DNA from: Streptomycetaceae bacterium
Lineage (GTDB): Bacteria; Actinomycetota; Actinomycetes; Nanopelagicales; Nanopelagicaceae
NCBI GenBank assembly: GCA_027490815.1
Contig: JAIXXJ010000029.1
Location: forward strand, 1-64,000
Direction of reading: 5' to 3'
DNA length: 64,000 nt
Shown here: one piece after another, positions 243 through 7,996 of the stretch
Layout: every line of letters begins with the position of its first letter
Position numbering within the stretch: position 1 is the first letter of the stretch
Notes under the pieces: generated by a model
What the model was told of the DNA's origin: nothing
The model's input: the letters and a program-made list of their open reading frames with translations, nothing else
The model's database searches: none
Translations under genes and position numbers: made by a program

Positions 243-265
243 AAAGAAGAGTCGCCCTATAAGCC
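243..265. repeat. Attachment site copy (orphan rnpB 3' end)
   Basis: Left copy of the 23-bp direct repeat. It matches the last bases of rnpB (minus strand GGCTTATAGGGCGACTCTTC) but the rest of the gene is absent here. Identity stops at both ends (A versus T before it, A versus G after it), which fixes the repeat length. On the minus strand it is followed by a T-rich run, probably the original rnpB 3' flank. Confidence 0.85.
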
Positions 266-1450: not shown

Positions 1451-2134
1451 TCAGGCCTTTGATAGGAAATACTTTTCTCTTTGAACGCCGTTATCTGAAT
1501 GAAACATAACTTCTCCGTGAGACGTTAATTCGCCACCAGATTTACCTGCCCCTGAACTTGTCAGCCACTTATTTCTGCGAGCGATTCGAAGTGCAGTTGT
1601 AACCAAAGAGGGTTCAACATTGAGAATCTCGGCAGTGCGTTGTACTGCACGACTATTACTAACAACACAAAGATCGGCATATATCTTTGCGATTAGAACT
1701 GCATCGGCTCCATTTGCTCCAATTATTGTCTTTTCACGATCACCCAAGAAAACGCTTGGCTTTTCTTTTCGTGCTGAATCAATGTTTCTAACCTTGAGAT
1801 TATTCACTCTCAGATTTTCCGCCAAGATAGTTGAGTGTGCCTTAATGAGATCACCCCACGGAATCTGACGAACAATTGTCGAATTAAGAGGATGCAAATT
1901 TGAGGACGAAGGCATTGAAATTGAAGCTACCCGCGCACGAAGCTTTCCCTCAGTTTCTGAAACTGGTTTTGGGTTAGAACCGACATATTGAATCTCGAGG
2001 GAGATCGCACTCAAACCCTCTTGTTTACCTCTTTTTGACCCAATCCAATATCGAAATGGCGCTTCATCGTGCCATGTCAGAAATTCCATGGCCTTGTGCA
2101 ATGAAGGTTGTGTCATCACAATTCCAGATTTCAT
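1451..2134 (-). CDS. Element-encoded protein with C-terminal helix-turn-helix
   Basis: 227 aa from the ATG at 2134, chosen because a strong Shine-Dalgarno (AAAGGGAG) precedes it; an in-frame start ten codons upstream has none. I do not recognise the N-terminal half. The last third (from about DAVLIAKIYADL to ARRNKWLTSSGAG) has the pattern of a small HTH seen in proteins encoded beside integrases in actinobacterial phages and plasmids: a helix, a 'xxTAExLNVxxS' turn and a recognition helix ending in 'RARxLGLL'-like residues, then a GGELT tail. That resemblance is by eye. It is the first gene of the leftward operon with the integrase and could repress or activate the divergent promoters at 2158-2193, or act in replication. 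Confidence 0.65.
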   Translation of the reverse strand: MKSGIVMTQPSLHKAMEFLTWHDEAPFRYWIGSKRGKQEGLSAISLEIQYVGSNPKPVSETEGKLRARVASISMPSSSNLHPLNSTIVRQIPWGDLIKAHSTILAENLRVNNLKVRNIDSARKEKPSVFLGDREKTIIGANGADAVLIAKIYADLCVVSNSRAVQRTAEILNVEPSLVTTALRIARRNKWLTSSGAGKSGGELTSHGEVMFHSDNGVQREKYFLSKA

Positions 2135-2157
2135 ATTTCTCCCTTTTGAGATAGGTT

Positions 2158-2193
2158 TTGACAAATCCTAACCCTTGAACCATAATCTGTCAA
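2158..2193. promoter_or_regulatory. Two superimposed divergent promoters
   Basis: Plus strand: TTGACA at 2158-2163, 17-nt spacer, CATAAT at 2181-2186, serving the excisionase-like gene at 2234. Minus strand: TTGACA at 2193-2188, 17-nt spacer, TAGGAT at 2170-2165, serving the HTH-integrase operon. Both have the ideal spacer and lie in the same 36 bp, and the two -35 boxes form an inverted repeat (TTGACA...TGTCAA). One polymerase bound here would exclude another, so the two operons are probably expressed alternately. These are much closer to the sigma-70 consensus than the promoters of the surrounding core genes. Confidence 0.75.
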
Positions 2194-2233: not shown

Positions 2234-2470
2234 ATGACTAACAAACTAACAACTGCCAACGCGGCCAAGGTAATAGGAAGATCCCCTCATTGGCTATATG
2301 TAAATTCAGAAAGGCTCAAAATTCCTCGCTACCGAATAGGGGGCAGATGGGTCTATTTCGAGTCAGAACTCGCTGAATGGTTCATGGATCAGAAGGAAAT
2401 GCATGAAGCCAGCTCAAGCCATAGACCAAAGAGCAGGATTCCAACGCGAATGCATGTGGAGTTTTCATGA
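2234..2470 (+). CDS. Excisionase-like MerR/HTH_17 DNA-binding protein
   Basis: 78 aa. The first 50 residues match the excisionase/AlpA fold: helix-turn-helix start (TTANAAKVIGRSPHWLYVN), then the wing (RIGGRWVYFESELAEWF) typical of HTH_17 proteins. A Shine-Dalgarno TGGAGGAG (2217-2224) lies 9 nt before the ATG. It is first in a rightward operon and overlaps the next gene by ATGA at 2467. Family knowledge: such proteins bend att DNA to favour excision or regulate element genes. Its position opposite the integrase operon fits a switch between staying and leaving. Confidence 0.8.
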   Translation: MTNKLTTANAAKVIGRSPHWLYVNSERLKIPRYRIGGRWVYFESELAEWFMDQKEMHEASSSHRPKSRIPTRMHVEFS

Positions 2471-3000
2471 GGAAAAATAGTTTCGGATCAGAAATGATCC
2501 CCTTTCAAGAGTTCGCTCGATTACTTGGTTATTCAAATTGGTTTGATGAAATGATGTGGAAAGAACACGGGCCATTTATGATGCATTTCGGTGAAGATAA
2601 ATGGGTCGAGAGAGATCTAGCTTATTTCTACATAACCAGTCGTGGCCTTGGAACATTTTTCAAATCTTCTTTACCCCCTGATTTTGTTCCTTTAGCTTGT
2701 TGTGAATCTGCGAGTACAGATATTTGCCGCGCAAATTCGATGCAAAGCAAGTTGCTCAAGTCAATTTCACGGATAAGTAACTATTGCTCCCCTGTTCCTG
2801 AATCATTAATTTGGCACGATATCTTCATTCAACTTGATTCATGCCAACTGAAGAATTACTTGGACTTCAGTTTTCAGCTATTTGAACTCAAGCTGAAGGG
2901 CTTAATTGATGTAACAAGAAATGATGAAGATCGCCCTATGTATTCCATCTCAAAAGTTCCAAAGAAGCGAGGGCCTGGTAGGCCAAGGAAATATACCTAG
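2467..3000 (+). CDS. Unknown element protein with C-terminal AT-hook
   Basis: 177 aa, starting in the ATGA overlap with the excisionase-like gene, so translationally coupled. The body is not recognised; residues 10-60 (FQEFARLLGY...WVERDLAYFY) may be a small helical DNA-binding domain, and the middle is rich in aromatic residues and Cys. The C-terminus KKRGPGRPRKYT has the GRPRK core of an AT-hook, which binds the minor groove of AT-rich DNA. Directly downstream (3014-3205) lies an AT-rich array of repeats and palindromes. Inference: it may be the initiator or partition factor for that site, or a silencer. No enzyme motif is visible. Confidence 0.6.
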   Translation: MRKNSFGSEMIPFQEFARLLGYSNWFDEMMWKEHGPFMMHFGEDKWVERDLAYFYITSRGLGTFFKSSLPPDFVPLACCESASTDICRANSMQSKLLKSISRISNYCSPVPESLIWHDIFIQLDSCQLKNYLDFSFQLFELKLKGLIDVTRNDEDRPMYSISKVPKKRGPGRPRKYT

Positions 3001-3046
3001 ATTTGATTTCTAAACTATATGACTATATGACTATATGACTATTACC

Positions 3047-3135
3047 TGTATACGTGACTATACTTTTGGTAAGGTGCGCAAAGAAAATAATTATTTTTAG
3101 TGCGCGAATTCTCTAAAAATATAGTCACGTATACA
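3047..3135. repeat. Nested palindrome inside the iteron region
   Basis: Arms TGTATACGTGACTATA (3047-3062) and its exact reverse complement (3120-3135) are 16 bp each. At the centre lies a perfect 14-bp AT palindrome AAAATAATTATTTT (3084-3097), and between them GCGC boxes at 3076-3079 and 3102-3105. All three pairs share nearly the same centre (about 3091), so this is one long imperfect palindrome able to form a cruciform or bind a symmetric protein complex. No T-run follows, so it is not a simple terminator. Confidence 0.7.
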
Positions 3136-3155
3136 GCGTATAGTCGATAATAAAC

Positions 3156-3205
3156 TATAATTTTTATAATTTATAGTCTATATAATTTTTATAATTTATA
3201 GTCTA
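3156..3205. repeat. Perfect 25-bp direct tandem repeat
   Basis: Two identical adjacent 25-bp units, 3156-3180 and 3181-3205, almost pure A/T, each starting TATAATTTTT and ending TATAGTCTA, followed by the first four bases of a third copy. The last TATAGTC of each unit is the heptamer shared with the rest of the array. Such AT-rich tandem units are typical DNA-unwinding or iteron elements. Confidence 0.75.
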
Positions 3206-3414
3206 TATAAATAGGGGAAAATATAATAAGAATTTTTCCCGATAATCCAAGATGCAGTAAATTTATCAGGATTTATTCTGGTTGAAATTGAACCTTTTAA
3301 TCCCAAATCAGGATTTTCATAAACAATTCCGCGAAAATGCACTATAACTTCTATGATAAACACTCGAATAATTGCTTCATTACTTCTTACTTGAGCGATG
3401 CCAATTCCACCCAT
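3196..3414 (-). CDS. Doubtful small open frame
   Basis: A 72-codon frame with an Ile/Val-rich sequence of globular-looking composition, but no Shine-Dalgarno before its ATG, no recognisable domain, and an end that runs into the AT-rich repeat. It could be a decayed gene fragment in the element or chance. The rest of 3206-3517 shows only a short GC-rich inverted repeat near 3465 (GGCTTCCGGGAGCC). Confidence 0.15.
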   Translation of the reverse strand: MGGIGIAQVRSNEAIIRVFIIEVIVHFRGIVYENPDLGLKGSISTRINPDKFTASWIIGKNSYYIFPYLYRL

Positions 3415-3517: not shown

Positions 3518-4849
3518 ATGGGAAACGCAGAAGCATTGGACGCACTTCGAGCTGAAGCTTTAGCTAATGATTGCACATTCGTATCAAAAGAAAGAGTGAA
3601 AGGAAATTCCCGATTCACATTTCGTTGTGGTTCGGAACATGAATTCACAGCAACAAGTAGCGCTATAAGAAGAAGGGGCTATTGGTGTCCGACCTGTTCC
3701 CAAGGCATTCAGCGATACACGGAAGAGACGGCGAGGGAATTTATGTTGTCCGTTGGATTGGAACCAACTGAGCCCTATGTAGGCTCAGGTGATCCTTGGA
3801 AATGCAAATGTCTGAAATGCGGCAAAGAGACCAAAAAACGACTTCGAAGTGTGAAGCAGACGGGAACTCAAATCGGATGTCAATCATGTTCGACACAAGC
3901 CCGTGCAGTTCTACAAAGAACTGACGAGACCATTGCGGCAGGAGTCATGTTGGCAGCCCAAGCAAAACCTATTGAGCCGTATAAAGGGAGTGGCGCTCGT
4001 TGGAAATGCGAGTGCATGAGGTGTGGAAACATAATTTTTCCTTCTCTCAGTAGCGTGAAGGGTGGTGGAGACCCTTGCACTTTCTGTTCCGGGCATTCAG
4101 TAGATGAAAAGCAAGCGATTGAACTTTGCAGAGAGTTTGGTCTTGAGCCAATAGGTGCGTATCCCGGCAACAGCGTTAAATGGAACATGAAATGCTTAAA
4201 GTGTGGCGCTGAAGTATCTTCCTTGTATGGGAATATCACCAGAAAGAAAAGAAGAGGCTGGAAAAGCTTTGGATGCCCCGATTGTTCTTTCTTGCAGATG
4301 GGAAGGCGTTATAGCGAAGACCCAGAAGTTGCACGTCAAAAGTTTCTAAATGCCGATCTAGAAATGATTGGAGAGTACATAACAGCTAGACTCCCCATTG
4401 AGGCAAAATGTTTGAAGTGTGGGGAAATCACAAAGCAAACTTTAAATGGCGTTATGAATGGCAAAGCTTGTAAATTTTGCTTCCATGTCGGTATCAAATA
4501 TGGCGAGCCAGCTTATTTATATCTGATTTTCCACAAGGAATTCGGTTCAATAAAAGTGGGTATTTCTAATACAGATGCGAATCTCAATCGTCTCGATTCT
4601 CACAAGAAGAATGGCTGGACTGAATACAAGTCCTTTAACTTTGATACAGCCGATGAGGCCGAATATTTTGAAACAATGTTGCTCAAGTGGCTTAGAAAAG
4701 AACGAGGTCTACAAGCTCATCTCGTCCGAGAACTCATGCCACAGGGCGGTTTCTCCGAGACAGTCGACGCCGAGGAAGTGACCCTGCTTGAGATTGAGGT
4801 AAAGCTCAAATCTCTACTTGAAGATAGAGCGGAACTCGATTCAGATTGA
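3518..4849 (+). CDS. Five-repeat zinc-finger protein with GIY-YIG-like C-terminal domain
   Basis: 443 aa. Four clear repeats of about 60 residues follow an N-terminal half-similar one: each has a helix, a 'GLEPIEPYxGS' strand, a WKCxCLKCG knuckle and a second CxxC. Cys pairs lie at 57/60, 98/101 with 121/124, 166/169 with 187/190, 226/229 with 253/256, and 298/301 with 318/321, as in treble-clef zinc fingers. The C-terminus resembles a GIY-YIG nuclease (T5orf172-like): AYLYLIF (332-338), KVGIS (346-350), Arg358, and a helix with Glu379/382/385. From memory, actinobacterial proteins of like build end in the same 'MPxGGxxET' motif. It is the element's only evident cargo; DNA binding and cleavage, perhaps against other phages, is inference. 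Confidence 0.65.
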   Translation: MGNAEALDALRAEALANDCTFVSKERVKGNSRFTFRCGSEHEFTATSSAIRRRGYWCPTCSQGIQRYTEETAREFMLSVGLEPTEPYVGSGDPWKCKCLKCGKETKKRLRSVKQTGTQIGCQSCSTQARAVLQRTDETIAAGVMLAAQAKPIEPYKGSGARWKCECMRCGNIIFPSLSSVKGGGDPCTFCSGHSVDEKQAIELCREFGLEPIGAYPGNSVKWNMKCLKCGAEVSSLYGNITRKKRRGWKSFGCPDCSFLQMGRRYSEDPEVARQKFLNADLEMIGEYITARLPIEAKCLKCGEITKQTLNGVMNGKACKFCFHVGIKYGEPAYLYLIFHKEFGSIKVGISNTDANLNRLDSHKKNGWTEYKSFNFDTADEAEYFETMLLKWLRKERGLQAHLVRELMPQGGFSETVDAEEVTLLEIEVKLKSLLEDRAELDSD

Positions 4850-5060: not shown

Positions 5061-5083
5061 AAAGAAGAGTCGCCCTATAAGCC
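5061..5083. repeat. Attachment site copy overlapping the rnpB 3' end
   Basis: Right copy of the 23-bp direct repeat (other copy 243-265). It covers the last 20 nt of rnpB, including the 3' strand of helix P1 (5064-5075), plus three bases beyond. Insertion here leaves the RNA sequence unchanged. Confidence 0.85.
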
Positions 5084-5423
5084 GGATCCTGTCGTTCTTG
5101 CGAACGGATCACCATCCATCTAGATCTGTAATCACTTACAGATTCAAGCAACCTACCCGTTGACTCGAGCGAGCAGCTCTCAAACGCCAACTGCGTGGTC
5201 TTGCTTCAGGCGGGGTTTACATAGCCAACTACATTTCTGTAATTGCTGGTGGTCTCTTACACCACCGTTTCACCCTTACCAACATTGCTGCTGGCGGTTT
5301 ACTTTCTGTTGCACTGTTCCCGCGGATTGCTCCGGGTGGGAGTTACCCACCGCCTTGCTCTGCGAAGTCCGGACTTTCCTCGGTATAACTTGCGTTATAA
5401 CGCGGTGATCCGGGCGACTCTTC
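5064..5423 (-). ncRNA. rnpB: RNase P RNA (type A)
   Basis: Catalytic RNA that matures tRNA 5' ends. Read on the minus strand, the ends GAAGAGTCGCCC and GGGCGACTCTTC (5412-5423 and 5064-5075) form a 12-bp P1 helix. Inside are the hallmark conserved stretches GAGGAAAGTCCGGAC (P4 5' strand region), GGGTAAGGGTGAAA-like and GGGTAGGTTGCTTGA-like cores, and the closing ACAGGATCCGGCTTATAG. Length 360 nt is normal. A TATCCT box 8 nt upstream (5432-5437) may be its -10. Its 3' end is the insertion target of the mobile element but the gene is intact. Open frames seen inside it are not genes. Confidence 0.97.
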
Positions 5424-6655: not shown

Positions 6656-7996
6656 TTATAGAGAGGCTAGGGCCTCTTCTAAGACTCCCAGAGCGTCTTT
6701 AAGAAGTTCATCTGTAATCACAATTGGAGGCAAGAATCGAACAACGTTTCCGTAGGTTCCTGCAGTTAACACAAGAACACCTTTGCTTTGGCAGTACTTA
6801 ACGATCGCACTCATTGCTTCAGGATTTGGATCCCTAGTGCCAGGCTTTACCAATTCAATTGCTTGCATGGCACCGCGTCCACGCACTTCACCGATCACTG
6901 AATATTTGCTCTGCATCTGACGCAATGAATCACCAAGAATCTGTCCAACGTGATTTGCGCGCTCTACAAGTTTCTCAGCTTCCATGGTCTCAAATACTCC
7001 AAGTGCTGCAGCACAGGCAATGGGATTTCCTCCATATGTTCCGCCAAGGCCAGAAACATGCACAGAGTCCATGATCTCTTCCCGCCCTGTTACAGCCGCT
7101 AGTGGAAGTCCGCCTGCAATACCCTTTGCAGTAACAATCATGTCTGGGACAACGTTTTCATGTTCAACAGCAAACATATTTCCAGTACGAGCAAAACCAG
7201 TTTGAACCTCATCTGCGATAAAGACAATGCCCTTTTCAGTTGAATACTTTGATAGAGCTGGCAAGAAACCCTTAGGCGGTACTACAAAACCACCTTCGCC
7301 TTGAATAGGCTCGATAAGAATTGCCGCAACATTGTGAGCACCGATCTCTTTTTCAATTTTGCTTGTAACCATCTCAATTGCATCTTCTGTAATCGTCGCT
7401 TGGTTGCCCATCCAATGGAAGGCATAGGGCATAGGGACGCGATAAATCTCTGGAGCAAAAGGACCGAAGCCTTCTTTATATGGCATATTTTTTGCAGTCA
7501 ATGCCATGGTCAAATTAGTGCGACCGTGATAGCTGTGTTCAAAAACAACGATTGCTTGGCGCTTTGTGTAGTGACGAGCAATCTTGACTGCATTTTCAAC
7601 AGCTTCGGCGCCGGAATTAAGAAGTACAGACTTCTTTTTAAACGTTCCAGGAGTGAGGGCATTGAGTTTTTCACACACCTCGATGTAACCCATATATGGA
7701 GCGACAGTAAAACAAGTATGTGTAAATGCTTGTACTTGATCAATAACTCGATCAACAACGCGGGGCGCTGAATTTCCAACGTTTACAACACCAATACCTG
7801 AACCAAGATCAATAATTTGATTTCCATCTATATCAAGAAGAATTGCATCACTTGCGCGTTCAATCACTACAGGAATGGCCATGCCTAGACCAGCAGATGT
7901 CGACTCTGTGCGGCGCTTTAGCGCTTCCAATGATTTTGGTCCTGGAATCGCTGTTACCAACCGACGCTCTTGAGTCAATGCAGTAAGTGTTGTCAT
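6656..7996 (-). CDS. gabT: 4-aminobutyrate aminotransferase
   Basis: PLP-dependent class III aminotransferase, 446 aa, moving the amino group of GABA (or a similar omega-amine) to 2-oxoglutarate to give succinate semialdehyde. Seen: NSGAEAVENAVKIAR (127-141), IEPIQGEGG (228-236), Asp262 in IADEVQTGFARTG, and the PLP lysine Lys291 in TAKGIAGG. Full length for the family. Leaderless start: TAGACT 6 nt before the ATG. It faces away from the decarboxylase-like gene at 8075 across a 78-bp gap, which suggests a shared amine pathway; an aldehyde dehydrogenase that could finish the route lies at 19236. Confidence 0.9.
   Translation of the reverse strand: MTTLTALTQERRLVTAIPGPKSLEALKRRTESTSAGLGMAIPVVIERASDAILLDIDGNQIIDLGSGIGVVNVGNSAPRVVDRVIDQVQAFTHTCFTVAPYMGYIEVCEKLNALTPGTFKKKSVLLNSGAEAVENAVKIARHYTKRQAIVVFEHSYHGRTNLTMALTAKNMPYKEGFGPFAPEIYRVPMPYAFHWMGNQATITEDAIEMVTSKIEKEIGAHNVAAILIEPIQGEGGFVVPPKGFLPALSKYSTEKGIVFIADEVQTGFARTGNMFAVEHENVVPDMIVTAKGIAGGLPLAAVTGREEIMDSVHVSGLGGTYGGNPIACAAALGVFETMEAEKLVERANHVGQILGDSLRQMQSKYSVIGEVRGRGAMQAIELVKPGTRDPNPEAMSAIVKYCQSKGVLVLTAGTYGNVVRFLPPIVITDELLKDALGVLEEALASL

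Follow-up and report, generated by a model that had tools for sequence, protein, structure and literature searches.

It was found that a gene for a 177-aa predicted DNA-binding protein is directly followed by a related, diverged array of short DNA repeats in all four loci where it occurs, and that all four loci come from one family of small-genome actinobacteria. One of them lies in the 64,000-nucleotide stretch of DNA analysed here (the window), which opens one contig of a 1.23-Mb genome. The pairing of the gene and the array is well supported, and sequence comparison suggests that the protein and the array are a portable module acting together. Since the pairing is kept at 24–32% protein identity while the integrase and the cargo change, the protein is probably a site-specific DNA-binding protein with a cognate site. 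By analogy with the rep-oriV layout of Salmonella genomic island 1 (SGI1), the likeliest of the readings considered is that the two are an initiator/oriV pair for the excised element; I hold this reading tentatively, at slightly under an even chance.

As listed in Table 1, the gene and the array belong to an integrated, roughly 4.8-kb element whose ends are 23-bp repeats of the 3′ end of the host gene rnpB. The inserted element leaves rnpB whole. With a PF00589 integrase and 23-bp rnpB direct repeats bounding both sides, it is a site-specific integrative element. The gene for the 237-aa protein is divergent from the HTH_17/177-aa gene pair, in which the stop of the former gene and the start of the latter overlap by 4 bp. 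Pfam and PHROG searches recognised no relaxase, transfer, or capsid gene among the five genes of the element, and no primase, helicase, helicase loader, or RepA_N initiator. Copies of the rnpB 3′ end were seen at several sites in the same genome and in relatives (G000:C10:45485-45509; L082, L086, and L087). The element lies almost at the left end of the window's contig, and a second contig stops near an rnpB-end copy. From the scatter of such end copies among relatives, it seems that elements integrate at rnpB repeatedly, as if stacked there. A relative of the window's cargo gene (L086:3627-5093, genome G258; 33% identity over 362 aa) adjoins an rnpB-end repeat; neither a homologue of the 177-aa gene nor the array was found near it.

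Table 1. Features of the integrated element and its host gene, in positions of the window
Feature	Position	Strand	Evidence or remark
Left attachment repeat, AAAGAAGAGTCGCCCTATAAGCC	243..265	+	Displaced copy of rnpB 3′ end; exact 23-bp match to 5061-5083
Tyrosine integrase, 374 aa	300..1424	-	PF00589, E 1.3e-26; PF14659, E 1.3e-5
237-aa protein, possible HTH regulator	1451..2164	-	ORF; weak PHROG HTH match, E 0.07
Candidate divergent promoters, TTGACA-17-CATAAT (+) and TTGACA-17-TAGGAT (-)	2158..2193		Consensus scan, 11/12 and 10/12; not functional evidence by itself
HTH_17 excisionase-like protein, 78 aa	2234..2470	+	PF12728, E 1.9e-7; PHROG excisionase families, E 4.5e-5 and 1.7e-4
177-aa predicted DNA-binding protein	2467..3000	+	ORF; three homologues; structure model
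PGRPRK codons, AT-hook-like core	2974..2991	+	PGRP identical in 4/4 homologues
Left outer ACTAT iterons, 8-bp spacing	3014..3042	+	Three exact 13-nt copies, about 3.6 units
Left inner half-site pair, 3038-3042 and 3057-3061, 19 bp apart	3038..3061	+	18–19 bp spacing kept in 4/4 loci
Central core, GGTGCGCA-AAGAAAATAATTATTTTTAG-TGCGCG	3073..3106	.	A+T-rich palindrome with flanking GCG motifs; aligned in 4/4 loci
Right inner half-site pair ATAGT, 3121-3125 and 3140-3144, 19 bp apart	3121..3144	-	
Two identical 25-bp units, 3156-3180 and 3181-3205	3156..3205	.	Each ends with a TATAGTC site
Candidate cargo promoter region, block TTTCATAAACAATTCC...ACTTCTATGATAAA	3315..3360	+	16-nt exact match with L007; visual match with L008
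Cargo protein, 443 aa, repeated zinc-ribbon-like units and GIY-YIG-like C-terminal region	3518..4849	+	PHROG endonuclease families, E 4.9e-39 and 1.5e-31; GIY-YIG only E 0.02
Right attachment repeat, at rnpB 3′ end	5061..5083	+	23-bp repeat
rnpB, RNase P RNA class A, host gene	5062..5421	-	RF00010, 315 bits, full length

The array occupies positions 3014-3206, just downstream of the 177-aa gene, and is a single dyad rather than separate repeats. An earlier note on this DNA had listed its parts from the letters alone, mentioning neither the element around them with its ends nor the overall dyad, and all the listed kinds of repeat are indeed there: the ORF ending in GRPRK, the nearly four 8-bp repeats, the two identical 25-bp units, and seven copies of GACTATA (three) or TATAGTC (four). 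The nested palindrome that it described is also present, with an inner palindrome AAAATAATTATTTT at 3084-3097, but its sizes need correction from 16-bp arms and 89 bp to perfect 17-bp arms (CTGTATACGTGACTATA at 3046-3062 and its complement at 3120-3136) and a span of 91 bp. A longer arm pair of 31 nt (3037-3067/3115-3145) matches at 87%. The words ACTAT/ATAGT were observed 10 times, whereas dinucleotide shuffles contained 1.9 on average, and neither this number nor the left/right polarity of the words was reached in any of 1000 shuffles. The longest perfect arm is less striking alone, being matched in 17 of 1000 shuffles. Folding of the array core as single-stranded DNA gave a stability 8.5 sd above that of shuffles.

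Is this layout found in other genomes? I searched 201 genomes of the family with the window protein and 296 genomes of the order with a profile of four sequences. Both searches gave the same four loci, that is, the window and three more (L007, L008, and L009, with 24–32% identity to the window protein), while two weak profile matches (G031:C12 and G079) contain stop codons and are fragments. Genome samples of the class and the phylum had no further homologue, and a scan of genome contigs returned only the already known G189 locus. The earlier note had proposed to check whether homologues are always trailed by similar repeats; they are, the window included, and every array found came with the gene. 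In the four loci, ACTAT half-sites lie left of the centre of an A+T palindrome and ATAGT half-sites right of it, at about 34–38 and 52–57 bp on either side, except that the inner right site of L007 is ATGGT and the second left site of L008 is ATTAT. Most loci have extra half-sites farther out at 7–9 bp spacing. The array regions are 68–76% A+T, and the A+T palindromic core with its flanking GCG motifs is present in 4/4 loci. The inner-site pattern matched exactly the four gene-bearing genomes, none of the 292 others of the order, and none of the reversed controls; it was drawn from the four loci, so that only its absence elsewhere is independent evidence. The window's two 25-bp units are not present as such in L007–L009, which have palindromes of about 50 bp instead. 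Two or more of these palindromes (CATGCGGT...GAAGTTAA...ACCGCATG) lie 97–98 bp apart just past the array in L007 (6090-6290, reverse strand) and L008 (7053-7260), while L009 carries a single one, similar in its centre but not in its stem.

Some other interpretations of the array itself were rejected or set aside. An RNA structure was considered, and the alignment has 11 compensatory pairs, but the counts of left and right half-sites vary from locus to locus, and direct repeats do not allow one-to-one pairing. Thus, binding sites explain the array better than an RNA structure does. The core GGTGCGCA is like that of a XerCD/dif site, but it has no second dif half-site. Telomere-resolution palindromes do not suit an integrated element with imperfect palindromes. 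Nor is the array an attachment site, as the attachment repeats are at the rnpB 3′ end, 2–3 kb away.

In L007, L008, and L009, the gene for the homologue starts just after a tyrosine integrase gene. The cargo comprises a C5 methylase and an SNF2-type helicase in L007, methylases and a match to a type II nicking endonuclease in L008, and hsdM and hsdS in L009, whose contig stops inside its element. The window integrase is of a different lineage, with 22% identity to that of L008. Since this integrase lineage differs and the cargo also differs (restriction-modification, helicase, and endonuclease genes), the protein and the array look like a portable module. Neither the protein nor the array was present where the order has integrases of more distant kinship, several of them with HTH_17 genes nearby. 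Thus, the module seems not to be simply a part of the integrase system. The left ends of the L007, L008, and L009 elements carry an identical 14-nt word, TTAACTCTTAATTG, next to different host neighbours; in L008, the word provides the end of a histidine kinase gene. The right end of L007 was placed approximately: ppx and a tRNA-Leu-like gene are about 50 bp apart in relatives and about 16 kb apart in G189, where ATAACTCTTAATCG, a sequence related to TTAACTCTTAATTG, may mark the right end. A strong G+C-rich hairpin, differing in sequence, was seen between the integrase gene and the homologue gene in L007 and L008; it is perhaps a terminator or an attenuator.

The constant neighbourhood of an integrase gene raises another explanation, namely that the 177-aa protein acts as a directionality factor, with the array as its binding region in integrase-mediated excision. 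An N-terminal segment of the protein has a weak hhalign match to HTH_17 excisionases (probability 6%, E 0.0058), and the portions of the L007–L009 elements that were read showed no separate HTH_17 gene. However, the window element has an HTH_17 gene of its own, and its array is about 2.7 kb and 1.9 kb from the attachment repeats, far from the usual binding place of such a factor. I consider this explanation very unlikely.

The integrases of L007 and L008 are 92% identical although their hosts belong to different genera, which indicates a recent transfer as judged from the sequences. Many islands move by means of a helper, and since the window element has no recognised relaxase, transfer, or capsid gene, movement from cell to cell would need one. 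The array might then be a transfer origin or a packaging signal that a conjugative plasmid or a phage uses in trans via the protein. However, a protein search of 50,697 phage and 72,556 plasmid records gave no match, no match was confirmed in viral contigs, and the dyad suits a replication origin better than a usual, asymmetric oriT. This helper-dependent role is thus improbable.

The C-terminus of the 177-aa protein is KKRGPGRPRKYT, which carries the GRPRK motif. As in AT-hook proteins, the PGRP core is near the C-terminus, and here it is common to all four homologues; such a short motif is uninformative on the family, and the rest of the protein matches none searched. The cysteines of a CC..C..C pattern are also invariant across the four. 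The earlier note had recognised no Rep or Par family in the protein, and this stands: Pfam, PHROG, PADLOC, and PDB sequences gave no match, hence none to a known initiator family such as Rep_3, RepA_N, RepA_C, HUH, and the like. The structure prediction and profile search that the note suggested yielded a predicted winged helix in the C-terminal half and, from the profiles, no family. The AlphaFold2 model made with the four sequences is weak over the full length (mean pLDDT 61); the winged helix, at about residues 86–161, is its better-modelled part, and the N-terminal half has no confident model. A single-sequence model of the L008 homologue (mean pLDDT 37) was unusable. Comparison with PDB folds gave a best Z of 10.6 (Zur), but the matches spread over many unrelated winged-helix proteins, and a family assignment from them was rejected. 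The predicted winged helix and the invariant PGRP fit a DNA-binding protein.

A small DNA-binding adaptor with several predicted DNA-contacting parts, encoded next to an array, might also serve segregation or copy control, in which case the protein would bind the array as a centromere. This is the least probable of the explanations weighed here: no ParA- or ParM-like NTPase partner was recognised in the window element, and an integrated element already segregates with the chromosome.

The initiator/oriV reading remains the preferred one. The array lies downstream of the gene, its half-sites are symmetric around an A+T core, and no other replication genes were recognised in the element; for these reasons an initiator/oriV pair is the most likely. 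As in iteron replicons, an array of putative initiator-type binding sites is next to the gene across relatives (4/4) and has an A+T-rich region within. The 177-aa protein would bind the dyad-symmetric array downstream of its own gene, the winged helix reading the ACTAT/ATAGT half-sites and the AT-hook taking the A+T-rich DNA between them. After excision, the complex may wrap the A+T-rich core of the circular element, melt it, and draw in replication machinery of the host or a helper; the array would thus be the oriV of the element and the protein its initiator. The earlier note had likened the gene and its binding array to origin or partition pairs. Of this, the pairing held at every locus, while an identity as Rep/origin or Par did not emerge: no recognised ParA-type partner, primase, helicase loader, or relaxase is beside the gene in the window element, and the DnaA-box consensus is exact only in L009 (TTATCCACA at position 7307 of the reversed locus, just before hsdM and about 310 bp beyond the array), the other three loci having only two-mismatch matches. 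The lack of similarity to initiator families, the DnaA-box consensus in one of four loci, and the small size of a protein with no recognised helicase- or primase-recruiting domain all speak against an initiator, as does the fact that integrative elements can persist without replicating by themselves.

Known systems offer partial parallels. In staphylococcal pathogenicity islands (SaPI), repeats flank an A+T-rich stretch next to the rep gene, and the window likewise has repeats on both sides of an A+T-rich stretch beside a gene. However, SaPI initiators have helicase activity (PMC7145576), while the window element has no recognised gene for a helicase or primase. The phage satellite PLE of Vibrio cholerae uses a non-helicase RepA and iterons; it is also a small integrative element whose initiator lacks helicase and primase and whose repeats have inverted sub-repeats around an A/T tract (PMC7145576). 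In contrast to the window element, with no RepA_N match and no known helper phage, PLE has a RepA_N fold and a serine recombinase. The layout is also like that of SGI1, an integrated island with a tyrosine integrase and xis, in which an iteron oriV with A+T-rich regions is directly downstream of the gene for the DNA-binding initiator Rep and is required for replication of the excised island (PMC7433901). SGI1 differs in having a RepA_C-type domain in Rep, 17-bp direct iterons, and a DnaA box (PMC7433901), whereas here there is no family match, the half-sites are 5–7 bp long and mirror each other in a dyad, and a DnaA box is not a general feature of the loci.

Transcriptional control is the other explanation that deserves attention. 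The protein on the array could act as an enhancer, silencer, or insulator and set the expression of the downstream cargo, for example keeping a restriction enzyme or nuclease off until establishment. In the window, L008, and L009, the first cargo gene follows the array on the same strand at a distance of 300–600 bp; a block resembling a promoter, which the window shares in part with L007 and L008, lies between array and cargo; and a winged helix with an AT-hook is frequent in regulators and silencers. The promoter consensus scan did not report the block in the window. A CTTCTATAATGAA-like motif, perhaps a shared promoter or operator, was seen before the integrase gene and between the array and the cargo in L007 and L008, and at 3341-3356 in the window. 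However, the array keeps its structure while each element has unrelated cargo, the first recognisable cargo gene of L007 is about 1 kb off, and with about 110 bp arranged symmetrically about an A+T palindrome, the array is larger than one would expect of an operator. Array-like sites were not found near the other genes examined, and no similar site cluster was found upstream of the 177-aa gene; with its downstream position, the layout is unlike an autoregulatory operator. I regard transcriptional control as unlikely, though the most serious rival to the initiator/oriV reading.

It is quite possible, though less likely than not, that the protein is the first member of a new family of replication initiators and works on a mirror-symmetric origin, so that defence-carrying integrative elements of small-genome actinobacteria could replicate after excision. 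Few mobile elements have been described in actinobacteria of this kind, and little is known about the movement of their defence genes. A portable module found across different integrases and defence cargo may serve to mark such elements and to test their replication directly. If the array is an origin, it would offer a compact replicon from a lineage without genetic tools, together with an initiator family absent from the databases searched here.
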